A stretch of 51,285 bases of DNA, taken from Nitrospira sp. GTDB lineage: Bacteria > Nitrospirota > Nitrospiria > Nitrospirales > Nitrospiraceae. Positions 17,781-26,729 of the stretch are shown here, piece after piece. The notes under the pieces are model-generated. The model saw nothing but the letters and a program-made list of their open reading frames with translations, was not told where the DNA came from and did no database searches. A program made the translations under genes and the position numbers. Numbering within the stretch: position 1 is the first letter of the stretch; the number at the start of each line of letters is the position of its first letter. The DNA lies in assembly GCA_024998685.1 (NCBI GenBank), contig JACOEH010000038.1:1-51285 (forward strand), written 5' to 3'.

Positions 17781-18464
17781 TCAGTGAAGCTCGATGGATA
17801 AAGGGGACCCTGAACCCTTAAAGCTCCCGGCGTAGAAGGCAGCAATCTGGGATCGGCGTCCGATATTCAGCTTTGAATAGATATTTGCGAGGTAATTCTT
17901 GACGGTCTTTTCGCTCAACTGCAGATTATGAGCGATTTCTTTGTTCGTGAGGCCGTTGGCCACCAACGGCAGAAGACGTTGTTCTTGCGGAGAAAGGAGA
18001 GGGCGCTTTGATTGTCCCGGCTCGCTATTCACATTCCTCAGCCATTCCGGTGTATGTTTCGTCAAGCGAGGATCAATGAGGGCTTGACCCGAAGCGACGG
18101 TCCGAATGGCACGGATCAAGGCATTGGAAGCAATGTCTTTCAGGATGTAGCCCTGAGCGCCGGAAAGAATAGCCTCGAGTACGGTATGGTCGTCGGCGAA
18201 ACTGGTCAAAAATAGCACGCGGGTAGCGGGACACTTTGCGAGAATCTTGCGGGCGGCTTCCACCCCGCTGCCGTCCGGCAATCGAATGTCGAGTAATACG
18301 AGGTCCGGCTTAAGACGATAGCAGAGTTTCTTCGCCTCTTCCATCCGCCTACCTTGCCCCACCACCTTCATGCCGGGTGTCAAATTGAGGACCGCACAGA
18401 GTCCGATACGCACGACTTCATGGTCATCCACCAGCACCAGCCGAATCGGTTTGGACTTATTCAT
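17781..18464 (-). CDS. NarL/DevR-type response regulator
   Basis: A 227-residue regulator. The receiver is complete: the acidic pair in [11 protein letters not shown], the phospho-acceptor Asp in [11 protein letters not shown], Thr in LFLTSFADD and Lys in GYILKDI. The C-terminal helix-turn-helix is [20 protein letters not shown] then [17 protein letters not shown]. Its start overlaps the end of the multi-PAS kinase gene by 8 bp, so it is almost certainly that kinase's partner. Targets are unknown. It closely resembles the regulator at 21654-22334, which suggests duplication. Confidence 0.92.
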
Positions 18465-21400
18465 ACACCGTTCCCTTCTTCAGCGGAACATCGACCAGGA
18501 CACTGGTTCCCTTCCCCAGGGCGCTCTGCAGCGTAAAGGTGGCGGAAATTTGCTTGGCTCGGGCGACCATGTTGCGTAATCCATGGCCACCGCGACGTTT
18601 GCGCTTGGGGGAAAATCCGACCCCATCGTCGCCGATGATCAAGTGGATCGTGTTATCCGCCAGACTCAGTCGAACCCAGCGATGGGACGCGTGCGCATGG
18701 CGGGTGCTGTTGCTGAGGGCTTCCCGGACGATGTTGAGCAATTGTTCTCCCAGCTTGGGGGTAATGAAGGACAGGACCGGATTTGTCAGGTCGAGTTCAG
18801 GCGTGGATTGGCCGGCGCCGGACATCGATGCGATGAGCTGCCGCAGGGCCTGTCCGAAGTCCGGCTCCGCCGTAGTGCGCTGCGTCAGCAAGGCAATGAA
18901 CCGCCGGACGTCGAGCATCAGACTATTCAGTTGGTCAACGGCTTGAGCGATGTGGATTTTGGATCGACGAGGAGATTTCCCCATCGACAATTTACCGGCT
19001 TCCAACTGCATGCCGACCGCGTAGAGGGCTTGTAAAATATTGTCATGCAAGTCTCGGCTCAAATGCTCACGCTCTTCCATTGCCAGTTTGCGCTCGGTAA
19101 TGTCCTGAACTGCGGCAAGGAGGAGCGGCCCTGCATGGCCGGATAACTCAACACGAGTCGCTTTGACCGAGACCCAAATAATTTCACCGGACTTTCGGAT
19201 GTATCGTTTTTCGTGGGTATATTCCGATCGGATCCCGCGGAAAAACTCGTCCGTCAACACGATGTTGGCGGAAAGATCTTCCGGGTGTGTGTAGAGGGCA
19301 TAGGTGCTGCCGACGATTTCATGTTCTTCATACCCTGTCAGCTCGCACAGGGCTTTGTTGGCGCTGACCATTCGCCAGTTCTCATCGAGGATACCCAGCC
19401 CGACCGGGGCTTCAGCCACGAAGCGCTGAAGCCGAAGCTCGCTTGCGCGTAAGGCTTTCTCAGCGCGCCTGTGTTCGGTGACATCTCGGAAACTCCAGAC
19501 GCGGCCGACGATTTCACCATCGAGGATCTGCGGTCTGGCATAGCGCTCGAAAACCCGTCCGTCTTTGAACTCAAGCACATCAAAGCTCTCCTGATCCGGA
19601 TGTGCATAGAGTTCGCGGACTTTGCGTAAAAATGCCTCGGGGGCTTGAAGTTGGTCGACGACAAAGGCCAACAGCGCCTCGTCGTCCCCACTGTCCGCGA
19701 GTGCTTGAGGTATATTCCAGAGGTGCAGGAAGCGCCGGTTGACACTGCTGACATTCCCTTGCCGGTCGATAACGAGCAAGCCGTCCGCGACCGAATTGAT
19801 GGCGGCTTGGAGAAGTGAGTAGGAACGTTTGCGATCATCGATATGCTGAACGACGGCTATGAGATAATCCGGCTCGCCGGAGCGGGCACGGACCAGCGAC
19901 ATAGTCAAGTCAACCCATAGCCAAGTACCGTCGCTGCGACGATACCGTTTCTCCATGGAGAACGAAGGGCGTTTGCCGGCGAGCAATTCTTGGAGGTAAG
20001 CAAAGTTGGTGGAGATGTCGCCAGGGTGCGTAAAATCTTGGAAGCTTCTATGCAGCATGTTCTCCAAAGGGTAGCCGAGCGTTTCGCAGAGGCGGGGGTT
20101 CACGCGGAGAAATCGCCCATCGAGACCGAGCTGGGCGATTCCGACACCCGCATGTTCATAGAGAGCCCTCCACAGCGACTCACTTTCCCGTACCTGTTCA
20201 TCGGCGAGGCGATTTTCGGTGACGTCGCGTACGACGCAGCCGACCGTCGCGCGATCAGCTCCGCATGCTGGAATCAACGTCAGAATCCCGGAGAAGTAGC
20301 GTAATTCGTCACCCAACGACACCCTGTACTCGACAGTTGCGGTTTCGCCTGTCGCGACAACATGGCGAATCGTTTTGAGATACTGGGCGCCGGCCTCCGG
20401 TCCGAAGATGTCGATCAATCGCTTGCCGATAAGGTCCTGCTTGGGAAGCAGCAGTTTATCTTCATTGCGGGTCCACACATTGAGGTATCGTCCATCCTCG
20501 TCAAATTCAAAAGCGAGGTCGTCCAACGCGTCCAGAAATGAGCGGAGCCGAGCTTCGCTCTTGGTCTTGGCCTCTTCGGCCCGCTTCAGGTCCGATTGAT
20601 CCACATAAATCCCGACGGCGATGGAAAGCTGTCCAAACTTGTCATAGACAAAGACAGGCCAAAGGAGGAGGTCGAGCATCTTGCCGTCTTTGTGTCGGCG
20701 CCGCAGTTCTATCGGGCCGGTCACCTCTCCACGGATTCCTGCTTGCCACAGTGCGTCGGCGGATGCTTCTTCACCCGGCTGAGTATAGGGGAGTTCGTGA
20801 CCCAACACTTCCTCTTCAGACCAACCGAATAAGCGCGTCGCCGCCTGGTTCCAACTGGTTACCCTGGCGTTTTGGTCAAGGCTGACGATCGGCAGGGCCG
20901 ATTCCTTGACGAGGGTACGGAGCATGCGCGAGGTTTCTTGGAGCTGGCATTCCGCCTGCCTGCGCTCCGTGATGTCTTCGCAGACCAGCAAGATGAAGAT
21001 GTGCCCGGTTTGGTCACGAATCGCCCGCGCTCGTTCTTTGGCCCACAGCTTGGTTCCGTCCTTTCGGATTCTTTCAATTTCCCACTGAAACGGCATGTAG
21101 GGACTGGCTGCGCAGTCCTTCAACCGAGTCAGCATGGTTTGCCGGTCGCGCGAATCAAACAATTTCTCGATAGATTGGCCGATGAGGTCTTCTTTCAGGT
21201 ATCCAAGTTGATCGGCTCCAAATCGGTTGACGGACAATATGGTGCCGTCGGCGGTGAGGGTGAAATACATGAAAGGGTTCTGTTCATAGAGTGATTGGTA
21301 ACGCTGCTCACTTGCCTTGAGCACAGACTCGGCCTGTTGTCTCCGCTCGACTTCCTGCTTGAGGTCGGTGATAGCTTGTTCGAGTTCCGCTGTACGTTCA

Positions 21401-21495
21401 CGGACTTGAGCTTCGAGTGTCTCTCGCCGTAGATCGACAAGTTCGGTGGACTCGGTGTCCATCGGCGCATTCATAGAGAAGAATTCCGGTGCCAT
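18457..21495 (-). CDS. Cytosolic multi-PAS sensor histidine kinase (HisKA_3)
   Basis: A 1012-residue kinase. A coiled coil (about 20-60) is followed by about six PAS domains, recognisable by openings such as [75 protein letters not shown] and [15 protein letters not shown]. The phosphorylation helix is [20 protein letters not shown], of the DesK/NarX type. The ATPase domain shows [22 protein letters not shown] and GGHGLRNM. No membrane segments or signal peptide are seen, so it should sense an intracellular cue, perhaps redox or a small ligand. It is translationally coupled to the regulator at 17781. Confidence 0.92.
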
Positions 21496-21653: not shown

Positions 21654-22334
21654 TTAAAGTTTTTGATTTCTTGCAGCACCGGGCATATGGGTTTCTTTCA
21701 TGAACCAGGCGACGGCCTCCGTACGACGTTTGACCTGGAGTTTATCAAAGATATTTGCCAGGTAGTTTTTCACGGTTTTATCGCTCAAGCGAAGCTGGAC
21801 GGCGATCTCCTTATTAGTTTTTCCTTCAGCCAAAAGCGGCAGGATCAAGCGCTCTTGCGGGGACAGTCGGGAAGTCCCATGGGAAGCCGCTCCAAGGTGT
21901 GAACTGGCACGAATCCAATGCAGGGCTTTCTGCGTGACGCGCGGGTCCAGATAACCCTGGCCCCCGGCGACGGTGCGAATGGCACGAATCAGATCATCCA
22001 TGCGGACATCCTTGAGGACGTATCCGTGGGCTCCGTTCTGAACCGCGGCCATCACCGTGGAATCTTCCGCGTAACTGGTGAGGACGAGAATCCGAAGCTT
22101 CTGAGAAATAGTCAGAAGCCGTCGGCAAGCCTCAGTGACCGAGGCGTCGGGAAGCTTCACGTCGAGTAATACCATCTGAGGCGCGAGTCGCTCAACGGCT
22201 GCTACGCCGTTCGTCACGGTTGAGGCCTCTCCGACGATCGTCAGATCCGGTTCGAGGTGCAGCAGCGCACGGAGCCCTCTACGGACCATCTCATGATCGT
22301 CAATAAGAACGATGCTGGTCGAGGACTGTTTCAT
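21654..22334 (-). CDS. NarL/DevR-type response regulator
   Basis: A 226-residue regulator with an intact receiver: [12 protein letters not shown], phospho-acceptor in [10 protein letters not shown], Thr in LVLTSYAED and Lys in GYVLKDV. The helix-turn-helix is [20 protein letters not shown] followed by [17 protein letters not shown]. The start overlaps the kinase stop by 4 bp (ATGA). It ends 158 bp before the multi-PAS kinase gene on the same strand. The pair may be under control of the lux-box-like site upstream of its kinase. Confidence 0.92.
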
Positions 22335-23128
22335 ATGGAAGTCAAAAGAGGCTCCAAGGAAAACTCCGCGATGACTTGCGTGCCTTCTCCGGTCTTGGAC
22401 TGGATCCTCAACATCCCACCGAGTCGTTTGGCTCGGGCCTCCATATTGGCAAGCCCGTATCCTCGAGACCGCCCGGTCGCCGTCGAAAATCCGATGCCAT
22501 CGTCATGAATGCTCACCCGAATTTTCGTTTGTCGCATGCGAATCGAAACGACGGCCCGTGTCGCATCGGCGTGGCGGGCGCAGTTGCTCAGCGCCTCCCG
22601 CACGATATTGAGAATCTCCCGCTCCTCCTCGTTCGTCAGAACATCAACGGCGCCCTGTTGGAGATCCAGCTTTATGTGTAACCGCCCTGTTTGCTCATAG
22701 GTCGTGCACAAGGCGAAAAGCTCGGACGACAAGTCGAATTCTTGGACACTTCCCGACTCCAATTCTCGAATCATCCCACGGACCTCATGAATCAACTGAT
22801 TGATCTGCTGGATCATTCGGTCGTCGGCTTCTTTCGCTTCCACCTTGTGATCGTTTCGGGTCCGCCGAGCCGTTTCAATGTTCAAACCCATGGCATACAA
22901 CGATTGCAACACGCAGTCATGCAAGTCTCGACCGATACGGGTGCGATCTTCCAGGAGCTTACTCAAACGGCTTTCAGTGGCTTTGAACGCGGTGGTTAAT
23001 TCACCGACACAAGGCTTCAATTGGTAGAGGTCGAGAGATTCCTCCCCTGGCCGTGCCGACTGGGGCAATGCCGGAGTTGATCGGCGCCCGCCGTTTAATA
23101 ATTGAAAATTCGTTTTGCCTTCCGTCAC
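22331..23128 (-). CDS. Small cytosolic histidine kinase (HisKA_3), no sensor domain
   Basis: A kinase of about 265 residues. After a short polar region and helix come the phosphorylation motif IGRDLHDCVLQSLYAMGLNI and the ATPase motifs [24 protein letters not shown] and RGYGLANMEARA. No PAS, membrane or other input domain is present, so it must take its signal from another protein or act as a constitutive phosphate donor or phosphatase. GTG at 23128 is preferred because GGAGG lies 8 bases upstream (23137-23141); an ATG at 23149 is possible. Transcribed divergently from luxI. Confidence 0.9.
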   Translation of the reverse strand: MTEGKTNFQLLNGGRRSTPALPQSARPGEESLDLYQLKPCVGELTTAFKATESRLSKLLEDRTRIGRDLHDCVLQSLYAMGLNIETARRTRNDHKVEAKEADDRMIQQINQLIHEVRGMIRELESGSVQEFDLSSELFALCTTYEQTGRLHIKLDLQQGAVDVLTNEEEREILNIVREALSNCARHADATRAVVSIRMRQTKIRVSIHDDGIGFSTATGRSRGYGLANMEARAKRLGGMLRIQSKTGEGTQVIAEFSLEPLLTSI

Positions 23129-23214
23129 GCCGGCACCCTCCTTCCGCATTCGTCGAAAATCAACCTGTTCAAGGCTGAATAATTGTGTTTGTACCCGAAA
23201 CGGACAAAGAACAC

Positions 23215-23234
23215 ACCTGGCGGACTCGCCAGGT
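23215..23234. promoter_or_regulatory. Lux-box-like palindrome 1 (kinase side)
   Basis: ACCTGGCGGACTCGCCAGGT is a 20-bp inverted repeat with perfect 8-bp arms. Length, ACCT/AGGT ends and CTGGC core resemble lux and las/rhl boxes bound by LuxR-type receptors. TACCCGAA starts 23 bp upstream of it at 23192. On the minus strand TTGTCC and AATTAT with a 17-bp spacer follow, so it may act on the kinase/regulator operon. Confidence 0.65.
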
Positions 23235-23374
23235 CACGCCTTGTGCCTGAAGATGAGGCCGTTTCGCCTTCTTCCGTCACGGCAGCATCCTCCACGCCGT
23301 CTCTCCTGCAGGTGTCTTCAAAATCACCCCTATCTCACAACAGAGCTCTTTTACCCGAAGTCCACTAGGAAATC

Positions 23375-23394
23375 CCCTGGCTGACCCGCCAGGT
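23375..23394. promoter_or_regulatory. Lux-box-like palindrome 2 (luxI side)
   Basis: CCCTGGCTGACCCGCCAGGT is a second 20-bp copy, 98 bp before the luxI start. TACCCGAA again starts exactly 23 bp upstream, at 23352, so the whole unit is duplicated. A receptor bound here could activate a luxI promoter near 23400-23420. The rest of the 363-bp interval (23129-23491) shows no gene. Confidence 0.65.
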
Positions 23395-23491
23395 GACGGT
23401 CTAGCCGCTTAATGGAACCATCCCGCCACCTCTTCACGACCCAGCGGCCCTATGCCGACGGCAAATCAACTCAAACTGAAAGGAGACAGTC

Positions 23492-24241
23492 ATGCGAGGG
23501 ATGGAAGTTATTGAAGAAAGAGCCGTGGAATTCTTGGAAGGCGAGCTTCTGGTCAAGACGATCAAGACCAAAGAAGAATTGACTCAAGCGTATCACTTGC
23601 GACATCGCGTATTTGCCGAGCGGCTGAAGTGGGTGCCCGAGCGGGCCGACAAACTCGAAGCCGATGTCTACGATGCTTGGAGCACTTCAATCGGAGTATT
23701 CGCGAATGAAACGAAGTTGTTGGGATTGGTCCGTATGACCCATGCGCCGGTCCCATTCATGCTGGAAAGTGAGTTCAGCGCCTGTCTTGTGGGGAGCCAT
23801 CGAGTCCGCAAGGAGACGGATACAGCGGAGATCACGCGACTTGCCGTTGACCCCGCGATTGCGGATCGCGGCCTGTCCGCAAGGCTCATGAAAACTCTTT
23901 TCAAGGGCATGTACCAGTGGTGCCTTCTCCATGACGTCCGCTACACGTACATGGTTGTGGAACATCGGTTACTGCGGGTTGTTCAGCGCATGGGATGGCC
24001 ATGCCACGCCATCGGAGAGCCGGTGGCGTTACCGCCGGCTGAGGTACTCTCTATCGGGGGATTACTCGACCTCAATGAATTTCGCCTCCAAGCCTCGATA
24101 GATCGCCCCGCCATGCTGGATTGGCTTACAACAACGACGCCGGTCTTCGGTCAGGCTCCGGCTTGCAAAAACCATCAGGAAAGCGACATGGGGGAATATA
24201 CAGAATTGGCGGAAGATCGGCGGCTCGTACGCGCGGCGTAG
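23492..24241 (+). CDS. Acyl-homoserine-lactone synthase, LuxI family
   Basis: A 249-residue autoinducer synthase; the family joins S-adenosylmethionine and an acyl donor to make an acyl-homoserine lactone. Conserved positions are visible: RHRVF and LKWVPE near the N-terminus, the acidic pair in EADVYDAW, GLVRMTH, and TAEITRLAVDP (the usual E-x-x-R block). It is longer than typical LuxI (about 200) because of a C-terminal extension after about residue 205. AGGAG lies 7 bases before the ATG. The luxR homologue is convergent downstream. The acyl chain cannot be predicted. Confidence 0.9.
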   Translation: MRGMEVIEERAVEFLEGELLVKTIKTKEELTQAYHLRHRVFAERLKWVPERADKLEADVYDAWSTSIGVFANETKLLGLVRMTHAPVPFMLESEFSACLVGSHRVRKETDTAEITRLAVDPAIADRGLSARLMKTLFKGMYQWCLLHDVRYTYMVVEHRLLRVVQRMGWPCHAIGEPVALPPAEVLSIGGLLDLNEFRLQASIDRPAMLDWLTTTTPVFGQAPACKNHQESDMGEYTELAEDRRLVRAA

Positions 24242-24300: not shown

Positions 24301-25119
24301 TTACATGGCGGACGGCAAGCCGTGGAGCGCAGGCAGGCCGTGTTCGATGGCGGTCGCCACGGCCTGAGAGCGAGAAGTCACCTCGAGTTTCGAGAAGATG
24401 CTTTCGATGTGGAATCGGACGGTTCGTTCGCTGACTCCGAGGATCTTGCCGATTTCCCAGTTGGTCTTGCCGTTCTTCATCCAATTGAGAATCGTGACTT
24501 CTCGCGAGGACAGTCCCTTGACGCATCGATCTGCCTGCGGGAGAGACTTTGGGGAGATTTTCAGAAGAGCCATATGAATATGGGACCCCAGGTACTCGAC
24601 GAGCGGAACCAGTCGCTTTCCATCGAGGGTCTCCTCGCTGGCAAACGAACAGAATGTCGCCACACCGCAGGCCTGATCGATAGAGCCCGTGGTAATGCCG
24701 TCGCATAGGCCGAATCGGCGCGCGGTCGCGATAAATTCCTGTTCTTTCTTGGATGACATGTTCTGATAGATCTCGTGCCAATGCTGGGTGCCCGGTGATT
24801 TCAAGGCAGACTGGAATACCGGGTCGATCTCCGCAAAACCGCTCTTCCAGTATAGATAGAGCCATTCATCCGGATAGCTGGCGTTGACGACGTTACCGAA
24901 CCCGGCAAATGTCTGATCCGGTCCAAGGCGAACGAGCCCCCCTAAGGCTCTCGTGAAGGAGAAATGACTCTGAAATCGAACGAGCACATCCCGCACGTGA
25001 TCCGGAGTCTCCGCCTGCGTCGCGTAATGGAGAATCTCGATGAAGTTCCGACATTCAGTCTTGGAAAGCGCATCGAACGTCTTATGCGGGAACGGTCGCA
25101 TTATTGGAGTGTGAGACAT
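24301..25119 (-). CDS. LuxR-family acyl-homoserine-lactone receptor
   Basis: A 272-residue receptor. The N-terminal autoinducer-binding domain shows the expected pattern: YPDEWLYLYWKSGFAEIDPV (Trp, Tyr and the Asp-Pro pair) and HWHE, then FGLCDGITTG. The C-terminal helix-turn-helix is LSSREVTILNWMKNGKTNWE then SERTVRFHIESIFSKL. AGGAGG lies 8 bases before the ATG. Likely ligand is the product of the neighbouring synthase, and likely targets are the two lux-box-like sites at 23215 and 23375. Its own promoter carries no such site. Confidence 0.92.
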   Translation of the reverse strand: MSHTPIMRPFPHKTFDALSKTECRNFIEILHYATQAETPDHVRDVLVRFQSHFSFTRALGGLVRLGPDQTFAGFGNVVNASYPDEWLYLYWKSGFAEIDPVFQSALKSPGTQHWHEIYQNMSSKKEQEFIATARRFGLCDGITTGSIDQACGVATFCSFASEETLDGKRLVPLVEYLGSHIHMALLKISPKSLPQADRCVKGLSSREVTILNWMKNGKTNWEIGKILGVSERTVRFHIESIFSKLEVTSRSQAVATAIEHGLPALHGLPSAM

Positions 25120-25355: not shown

Positions 25356-26729
25356 CTGACGCACGCGCGACATCTCGGCGGCAGTACCGTCCTGGTCATC
25401 CTCTTGGCTTGTCTCGTGGAGTCGACCGATAGTCAAGCCCAGGCGCTACGTTTTCAGCCTCAAGGAGCGCGCGCGGCGGGGCAGGGCAACGCATTCGCGG
25501 CGGAAGCAGATGATGCATCAGCCATTCGCTACAACCCGGCCGGATTGACCCAAGTTCACGGCATTCAAAGCGTGGTTGGGATCAATGTGCTCGGCGGATC
25601 CGTCAAATTCACAAGCCCGACCGGTCTCGATAGCCGTGGCGACTTCAATGGCAGTGTGAACTGGCCTCCTCCGAGTAACTTTTATCTCAGTGCCGATCTT
25701 GCACGTGTCGGATTGCCCATTCTTTCGCCGGTGACGGTGGGAATCGGGTTGACTTCGCCGTTCGGCATGAATACTCGTCACCCGGTCGATGGTCCGTTCA
25801 ATACGGCTGTAACCTCGGCCGCGCTCCCGTTGATCGCTATCAAGCCCACCATTGCCTACAAGATAAACGAGGATCTGTCGGTGGGTGTGAGCGCTGATAT
25901 TTATACCTTTGCGAGCTTTCTCGGCGAAGGCCACGTAGAGCAGAAACAGATAAGCGCCGGAGCCTTGGGAATTCCGGTTGGAGCGTCCGTCGAACTAAAC
26001 GGGAAAGGGACCGGGGCAGGCGTCACAGCCAGCCTGCTCTATACTCCCGTGAGAAACGGAGCCGGCAAACCCATCATGTCCATCGGGCTGGTCTATCACA
26101 GTCAAGCCGTGTTGCCGTTGAGTGGATCATTATTAGTCAACGGAGCGAAAGTGGCCGATGCTTCCACCGATCTTGTCCTGCCGCAAATAGTAACCGGAGC
26201 CGTAGCTGTCTGGCCTGTGCGCACCGGCGAGAAAGAGTGGAAGGTCGAGCTCGATGTCGAGTATGTGGGCTGGAGTTCAAACAGGAATCTCGATGTGCGA
26301 CTTTCCAATGGGGCGACGATTCCCCAGCCGCAACAGTGGAACAACGTGCCGGTGATTGCATTCGGAACCGAATATAAGTGGTTGAGCCCACAATGGTTGC
26401 CGCACTGGGACGTTGCGGTGCGTTCCGGCTATACCTATACAGGAGACCCTGTTCCAGATCGAACGTTCAATCCTGCGACTATTTCCTTGTCGGCTCATAC
26501 CCTGTCTCTTGGCGCCGGTTTCCTTTGCACGGGAACAGGTCGGTTTCTGGGCATCATTCCTTGCAGTGGAGAGTCGGCTCTGTGGCCGAAAGGCATCGGG
26601 CTGGACCTGGCCTATCAGGAGTGGTTCTATGAATCACGCACCGTTGTCGATAATTTGAATCCGACCGTCAACGGAACGTATCACCCCTTCGTGCATTTAG
26701 GCACGCTTAGTTTGCGTACGCTATTCTAG
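25356..26729 (+). CDS. FadL/OMPP1-type outer-membrane transport protein
   Basis: A beta-barrel of the FadL/TodX family, which passes hydrophobic substrates across the outer membrane. The mature N-terminus has the family pattern LRFQPQGARAAGQGNAFAAE then DDASAIRYNPAGLTQ, and the protein ends in LRTLF with a C-terminal aromatic residue as in barrels. A signal peptide is visible only if translation starts upstream of TTG 25404. The same frame from CTG 25356 gives THARHLGGSTVLVILLACLV with a likely cut after SQAQA. No ATG, GTG or TTG exists in frame between the stop at 25329 and 25404, so the start is CTG or ATT, or an error is present. The substrate is unknown. Confidence 0.82.
   Translation: MTHARHLGGSTVLVILLACLVESTDSQAQALRFQPQGARAAGQGNAFAAEADDASAIRYNPAGLTQVHGIQSVVGINVLGGSVKFTSPTGLDSRGDFNGSVNWPPPSNFYLSADLARVGLPILSPVTVGIGLTSPFGMNTRHPVDGPFNTAVTSAALPLIAIKPTIAYKINEDLSVGVSADIYTFASFLGEGHVEQKQISAGALGIPVGASVELNGKGTGAGVTASLLYTPVRNGAGKPIMSIGLVYHSQAVLPLSGSLLVNGAKVADASTDLVLPQIVTGAVAVWPVRTGEKEWKVELDVEYVGWSSNRNLDVRLSNGATIPQPQQWNNVPVIAFGTEYKWLSPQWLPHWDVAVRSGYTYTGDPVPDRTFNPATISLSAHTLSLGAGFLCTGTGRFLGIIPCSGESALWPKGIGLDLAYQEWFYESRTVVDNLNPTVNGTYHPFVHLGTLSLRTLF

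Follow-up and report, generated by a model that had tools for sequence, protein, structure and literature searches.

The described system closest to the locus studied here is NspI/NspR1 of activated-sludge Nitrospira, for which Tan et al. 2021 (PMC8553950) tested 61 predicted lux boxes. NspR1 with C8-HSL binds and activates its site, as found by reporter and EMSA, and it strongly activated two overlapping divergent promoters (196.6-fold and 14.0-fold), the strong response among the 61 candidates being limited to this luxI-divergent pair (PMC8553950). The window, that is, the whole stretch of 51,285 nucleotides of Nitrospira sp. DNA analysed here, has like NspI/NspR1 a LuxI/LuxR pair, and the space that separates luxI from a divergent gene contains lux-box sequence of the same form as the NspR1 box, which reads ACCTGGCGGTTCCGCCAGGT; the bidirectional activation found there is what we propose for the window. 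The two differ in the number of boxes, one in NspI/NspR1 and two in the window (the central spacer is the sole difference between the NspR1 box and box 1), and in the divergent gene, which is reported as a GGDEF/EAL protein for NspI/NspR1 whereas the window has a histidine kinase and a response regulator (PMC8553950). Further LuxI/LuxR homologues of lineage II Nitrospira that make AHLs are NjpI/NjpR, from Nitrospira japonica NJ1, and AubI/AubR, from a metagenomic clone (both in PMC5767232). The AHL chain lengths are C10-C14 for NJ1, C12 for AubI and C8 for NspI (PMC5767232, PMC8553950), and no promoter or target analysis for NjpI/NjpR was found in the passages of PMC5767232 that were covered. 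Other reports on quorum sensing in Nitrospira deal with gene distribution and AHL products.

Two predicted lux boxes and their neighbouring genes

The two 20-bp palindromes that the first-pass annotation had placed at 23215-23234 and 23375-23394 lie exactly there when the sequence is re-read, and the gene identities that it had proposed were confirmed, the kinase being of HisKA_3 type, the regulator of NarL type and the other two a LuxI and a LuxR with an AHL-binding domain (Table 1). The resemblance of the palindromes to known LuxR-receptor sites also held, their form being that of the NspR1 lux box; this lux-box type, proven for NspR1, is already known (PMC8553950). Box 1 is a perfect 7-bp inverted repeat that matches ACCTGGC-N6-GCCAGGT exactly, and box 2 departs from it by one mismatched outer pair, with C for A at position 1. 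The core CCTGGCN6GCCAGG is found twice in the window against 0.00 expected from 100 dinucleotide shuffles, and the whole 4.83 Mb Nitrospira genome contains it in exact form only as these two copies. The search for a wider regulon in the same genome gave sites with 2-3 mismatches only at control frequency.

Table 1 Features of the lux-box region, in window coordinates
Feature	Position	Strand	Remarks
NarL-type response regulator	21654..22334	-	overlaps kinase by 4 nt
Histidine kinase, HisKA_3 + HATPase_c, no recognised sensor domain	22331..23128	-	start corrected to GTG
Second kinase-start remnant, GTG-ACG-GAA	23125..23280	-	own Shine-Dalgarno 23289-23293; 51-codon frame
Putative -10 hexamer TACAAA, leftward promoter 1	23188..23193	-	its TA ends TTCGGGTA; [GC]TA conservation
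Lux box 1 (kinase-proximal)	23215..23234	no strand	ACCTGGCGGACTCGCCAGGT; predicted site; orthologous boxes in relatives
Putative -10 hexamer TAAAAG, leftward promoter 2	23348..23353	-	flank conservation and sequence
Lux box 2 (luxI-proximal)	23375..23394	no strand	CCCTGGCTGACCCGCCAGGT; 117 bp upstream of luxI ATG; predicted site
Conserved luxI-side block TGGAACCAT, with GAC right after box 2	23413..23421	+	putative rightward promoter or leader element
luxI, AHL synthase, type A	23492..24241	+	PF00765, E 1.2e-21
luxR, AHL receptor	24301..25119	-	PF03472 + PF00196 (GerE); convergent to luxI
FadL/TodX-type outer-membrane protein	25404..26729	+	conserved right flank of exchanged luxI-luxR cassette

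The kinase starts most likely at GTG 23128 and not at the ATG at 23149, as suggested by the Shine-Dalgarno sequence AAGGAGGG at 23136-23143 that precedes the GTG and by the agreement of the relatives on this start; kinase and response regulator are a probable operon. Directly after them on the same strand there is a second two-component pair (17781-21495), composed of a 1012-aa multi-PAS kinase and another NarL-type regulator. On the other side of the boxes, ATGGAACCAT was considered as an upstream luxI start and discarded, being out of frame and with an ATG that is not conserved. The luxR gene of the window codes for the only full-length AHL-binding LuxR found in the genome, with one further weak partial match on contig C9, and its nearest solved relative is CviR (PDB 3qp5). 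The locus combines elements of a LuxI/LuxR circuit: a LuxI-family synthase, a LuxR with both domains and a box in the luxI promoter that is conserved in the orthologues. The FadL/TodX-type gene adjoins luxR in most relatives, and a role in the uptake of long-chain AHLs is conceivable.

Conservation of the box and of its flanks

Relatives of luxI were found in 93 of the 175 genomes of the family, and 34 further loci came from a second collection. At nearly all of these loci the luxI-proximal box precedes luxI by 60-152 bp, and at a few it is at about -276; it is conserved in 73 non-identical relatives. The first-pass annotation had made its proposal depend on conservation of the palindrome upstream of luxI orthologues, and this conservation is what we found across the family. 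Within the genus, 55 of 77 genomes contain the exact 20-mer, at 69 sites, 67 of them just upstream of luxI, and the exact box is present in 55 of the 60 genomes that bear luxI versus none of the 17 that do not. Three of the five luxI-bearing genomes without an exact copy (G106, G073 and G108) have boxes with at least one varied end base, in G096 the locus is at a contig edge and in G066 luxI has an in-frame stop and there is no box. As judged from the genome sequences, such a distribution is typical of a site that is reserved for LuxR and of a very small direct regulon. The only exact boxes away from luxI in the 77 genomes (G055:C1:1469316-1469335 and G120:C22:39402-39421) are possible extra targets. 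The decayed locus of G066 (L117) has, besides the in-frame TAG in luxI, a PAS kinase of 1006 aa that diverges from it only 5 bp away.

The divergent neighbour is also conserved. A HisKA_3-type kinase was found by similarity in 70 of 76 loci, with a Pfam check on distant representatives, and it is kept in all three flank groups, usually with the response regulator next to it. Since this pair is the conserved divergent neighbour, the link between quorum sensing and a two-component system suggested in the first-pass annotation is the best reading. None of the divergent genes to which Pfam was applied was a GGDEF/EAL neighbour like the one in PMC8553950. At L084 the gene that the box faces directly is a response regulator in place of a kinase, and at L118 it is an ORF of 272 aa that has no match in Pfam. 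The arrangement in most relatives is a single box serving both directions, and boxes on the kinase side orthologous to box 1 were found at L012, L013, L019, L020 and L100.

The octamer TACCCGAA is located at 23192 and 23352, exactly 23 bp upstream of each palindrome as had been described, but its proposed role as part of a duplicated and conserved composite site did not survive the comparison. What relatives keep at this place is no more than the TA that belongs to a -10 element, and among about 57 distinct boxes listed the full octamer accompanies only the two copies of the window. The octamer alone is found 3 times in the window versus 0.9 expected, which is not unusual, and as an independent operator it was rejected, being neither conserved with the boxes nor remarkable in its count. 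Actually, the kinase-side flank of the 73 non-identical boxes conserves little beyond G-A at the box edge and [GC]TA at 21-22 nt, the latter with 59 occurrences among the 73 relatives. From its sequence and spacing, this conserved position is that of TAnAAn, a putative -10 hexamer at class II spacing, and the window has there TTCGGG followed by TACAAA in one copy and by TAAAAG in the other. TACCCGAA is then best described as the start of the predicted leftward -10 hexamer plus six bases common to the two window copies alone. The hexamer at about 20-21 nt beyond the box that characterizes class II LuxR promoters is thus present, at sequence level, on the leftward side.

On the luxI side, the conserved parts of the flank are GAC(G) directly at the box, with GAC at 94-100% per position among the 73 relatives, and TGRAACCAT at 19-20 nt, of which TGRAAC is present in 43 of the 73. 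Box 2 is flanked by both elements and box 1 by neither. The TGRAACCAT block (23413-23421) is unlike a sigma-70 -10, and a site for an alternative sigma factor or for a second regulator is conceivable. The two composite copies had been described as facing one the kinase and the other luxI, and this has to be corrected: they are direct repeats and therefore face the same way (leftward), and because TACCCGAA covers the start of the putative leftward -10 hexamer both point to the kinase. Only the second site has in addition the luxI-side block, suggesting that both boxes serve leftward promoters and that box 2 serves luxI too.

Cassette exchange and the origin of the double box

Four types can be distinguished in the LuxI tree: A, to which the window belongs, B1, B2 and C. 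The LuxR tree divides in the same way, with the minimum of 3 changes, indicating that luxI and luxR travel together. The FadL tree, in contrast, needs 14 changes of LuxI type and rejects a single type-A clade (p-AU 1.5e-62), the types and the groups in this test being both named from the LuxI tree, and the kinase tree needs 22. One example is the comparison of L073 (B1) with L102 (C), which share 93% identity in the kinase, 96% in the regulator and 95% in FadL versus 45% in LuxI and 46% in LuxR. DNA identity of L073 and L074 with L102 and L114 is about 90-97% in both flanks and about 50% from the lux-box region to the start of fadL. Between these types, B1 and C, the ligand domain of LuxR is about 39-40% identical versus 69% for the DNA-binding (HTH) domain. 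Furthermore, L020 (A) and L100 (B2) have the same two-box promoter with a different cassette, and the four types are interleaved across the family tree. Two of the swap genomes, G115 (type A) and G053 (type C), are assembled as single contigs, and this makes an artefact of binning less likely. luxI and luxR thus form four allele types that are exchanged as a cassette between the lux box and fadL. Two genomes contain two luxI genes of different types, G089 (on C23 and C242) and G109 (on C1 and C408), either as a double system or by contamination (6% and 4%, respectively).

The alleles of signal and receptor are therefore co-inherited and incongruent with their flanks, which is one trait of a pherotype-type locus, and the different types may make and perceive different signals, of which the more divergent ligand domain of LuxR is an indirect hint. 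With slightly better than even confidence, we regard this as an AHL "pherotype" locus in which four luxI-luxR types are exchanged by recombination between the lux box and fadL while the box, the DNA-binding domain of LuxR and the two-component output stay constant, the two-box promoters being joints of the exchange. No report of AHL pherotypes or of luxI-luxR cassette exchange was found in the literature searched, which was largely outside subscription journals. If this reading is true, the identity of the signal is swapped between species with the output unchanged, and whether Nitrospira species living side by side perceive each other's signals may depend on the allele types that they carry.

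The double box of the window has kept traces of its history. Positions 23100-23234 and 23260-23394 align over the box, the leader, the Shine-Dalgarno sequence and GTG-ACG-GAA, and the alignment without the box scores 80 versus 43 +/- 5 in shuffles, with none of 2000 as high. As the copies align through GTG-ACG-GAA, the kinase start corresponds to GTG 23128 and the relic start to GTG 23280. The TGA of the remnant frame overlaps the GTG of the kinase, and the remnant is common to the window and two close relatives, L012 and L013. The pair is an old kinase promoter, present in two copies and including the remnant of a start codon, that was inherited in the clade of the window. The 51-codon frame (VTEEGETASSSG...) was also considered as a conserved, coupled leader peptide and rejected as a general feature: L011 and L013 have it intact, but in L012 it is broken by a frameshift and L019 lacks it.

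How the second copy arose is less certain. We somewhat favour, from sequence comparison, that two-box arrangements are joints between recombined alleles over an ancient duplication with later loss or divergence, and the leader copies do match other lineages. A possible but less probable origin is that about 155 bp were simply duplicated in tandem in an ancestor of the window's clade and diverged later, with no foreign allele. This would account for copies that can be aligned from end to end, the kinase start included, and in the window the two leaders resemble each other more than expected by chance, the best match of the luxI-side copy being the other copy; L018, with two adjacent and near-identical boxes, is a clear local duplication. 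However, the copies of L012 and L013 have much nearer matches in other genomes than in their respective partners, which rank only 18-28, and L104 and L014-L016 have between their boxes a longer relic of a kinase N-terminus that is closer to the kinases of other genomes than to their own. In L104 this relic scores 133 to a foreign kinase versus 54 to its own, and 33 kinases rank above its own. For the window itself a recombined-allele origin is probable, with a remnant that is too short to tell it from ancient duplication.

Proposed regulation and comparison with known systems

The whole explanation, with boxes of the NspR1 type, activation of kinase/regulator and luxI by LuxR with AHL, and a double box derived from allele recombination, is one that we hold with good confidence. 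LuxR with the AHL made by LuxI would most likely bind both boxes. Each of them would act in a leftward class II promoter, with the box at -35 and the -10 about 21 nt downstream, for the kinase/response-regulator operon, and box 2 would also activate luxI in a positive feedback. Such AHL-dependent two-way activation is suggested by analogy with NspR1 (PMC8553950). As there is no other strong box in the genome, the main direct output is probably this two-component pair; the response regulator would pass the signal on, and the kinase, having no sensor domain, may be controlled chiefly by its amount.

It is possible, though we tend to doubt it, that the second box is a neutral relic and that one box is in use, as could be expected from the single box that serves both directions in most relatives and from the lack of the luxI-side block at box 1. 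Against this, the window, L012 and L013 have both boxes intact at all 12 core bases, and the -10 positions are also retained. It is very improbable that the palindromes are operators by which the NarL-type response regulator regulates itself, in place of LuxR sites: they do sit in the promoter of its own operon, but their form is identical to the proven LuxR site (PMC8553950), they are missing from genomes without luxI and they persist at loci whose adjacent kinase is down to about 40% identity. That these perfect inverted repeats between genes are terminators or RNA hairpins can practically be dismissed, as they lie between divergent promoters, are not followed by a T-run and keep a conserved spacing to the -10 elements.

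The closest solved relative of this LuxR, CviR of Chromobacterium (PDB 3qp5), is similar over nearly the full length and differs in half-site and organism. Nitrospira perform nitrite oxidation and comammox, and with a lux box that is nearly exclusive to this locus the likely output of quorum sensing in this genus is one two-component pair. In class II promoters of the LuxR/TraR family the lux box is a 20-bp dyad that overlaps the -35 position. The dyad length and the spacing to the -10 are alike in the window, and the differences are the half-sites, CCTGGC/GCCAGG, and the service of two divergent promoters by one box. The swapping of luxI-luxR cassettes suggests that the exchange of alleles is a way in which AHL signals become diverse, as is better known from the peptide systems of Gram-positives, where pherotype loci such as agr and comQXPA have a polymorphic signal/receptor cassette between conserved flanks. 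The polymorphic cassette is alike in Nitrospira, but it contains an AHL synthase and its receptor, and the output kinase is outside the exchanged segment.
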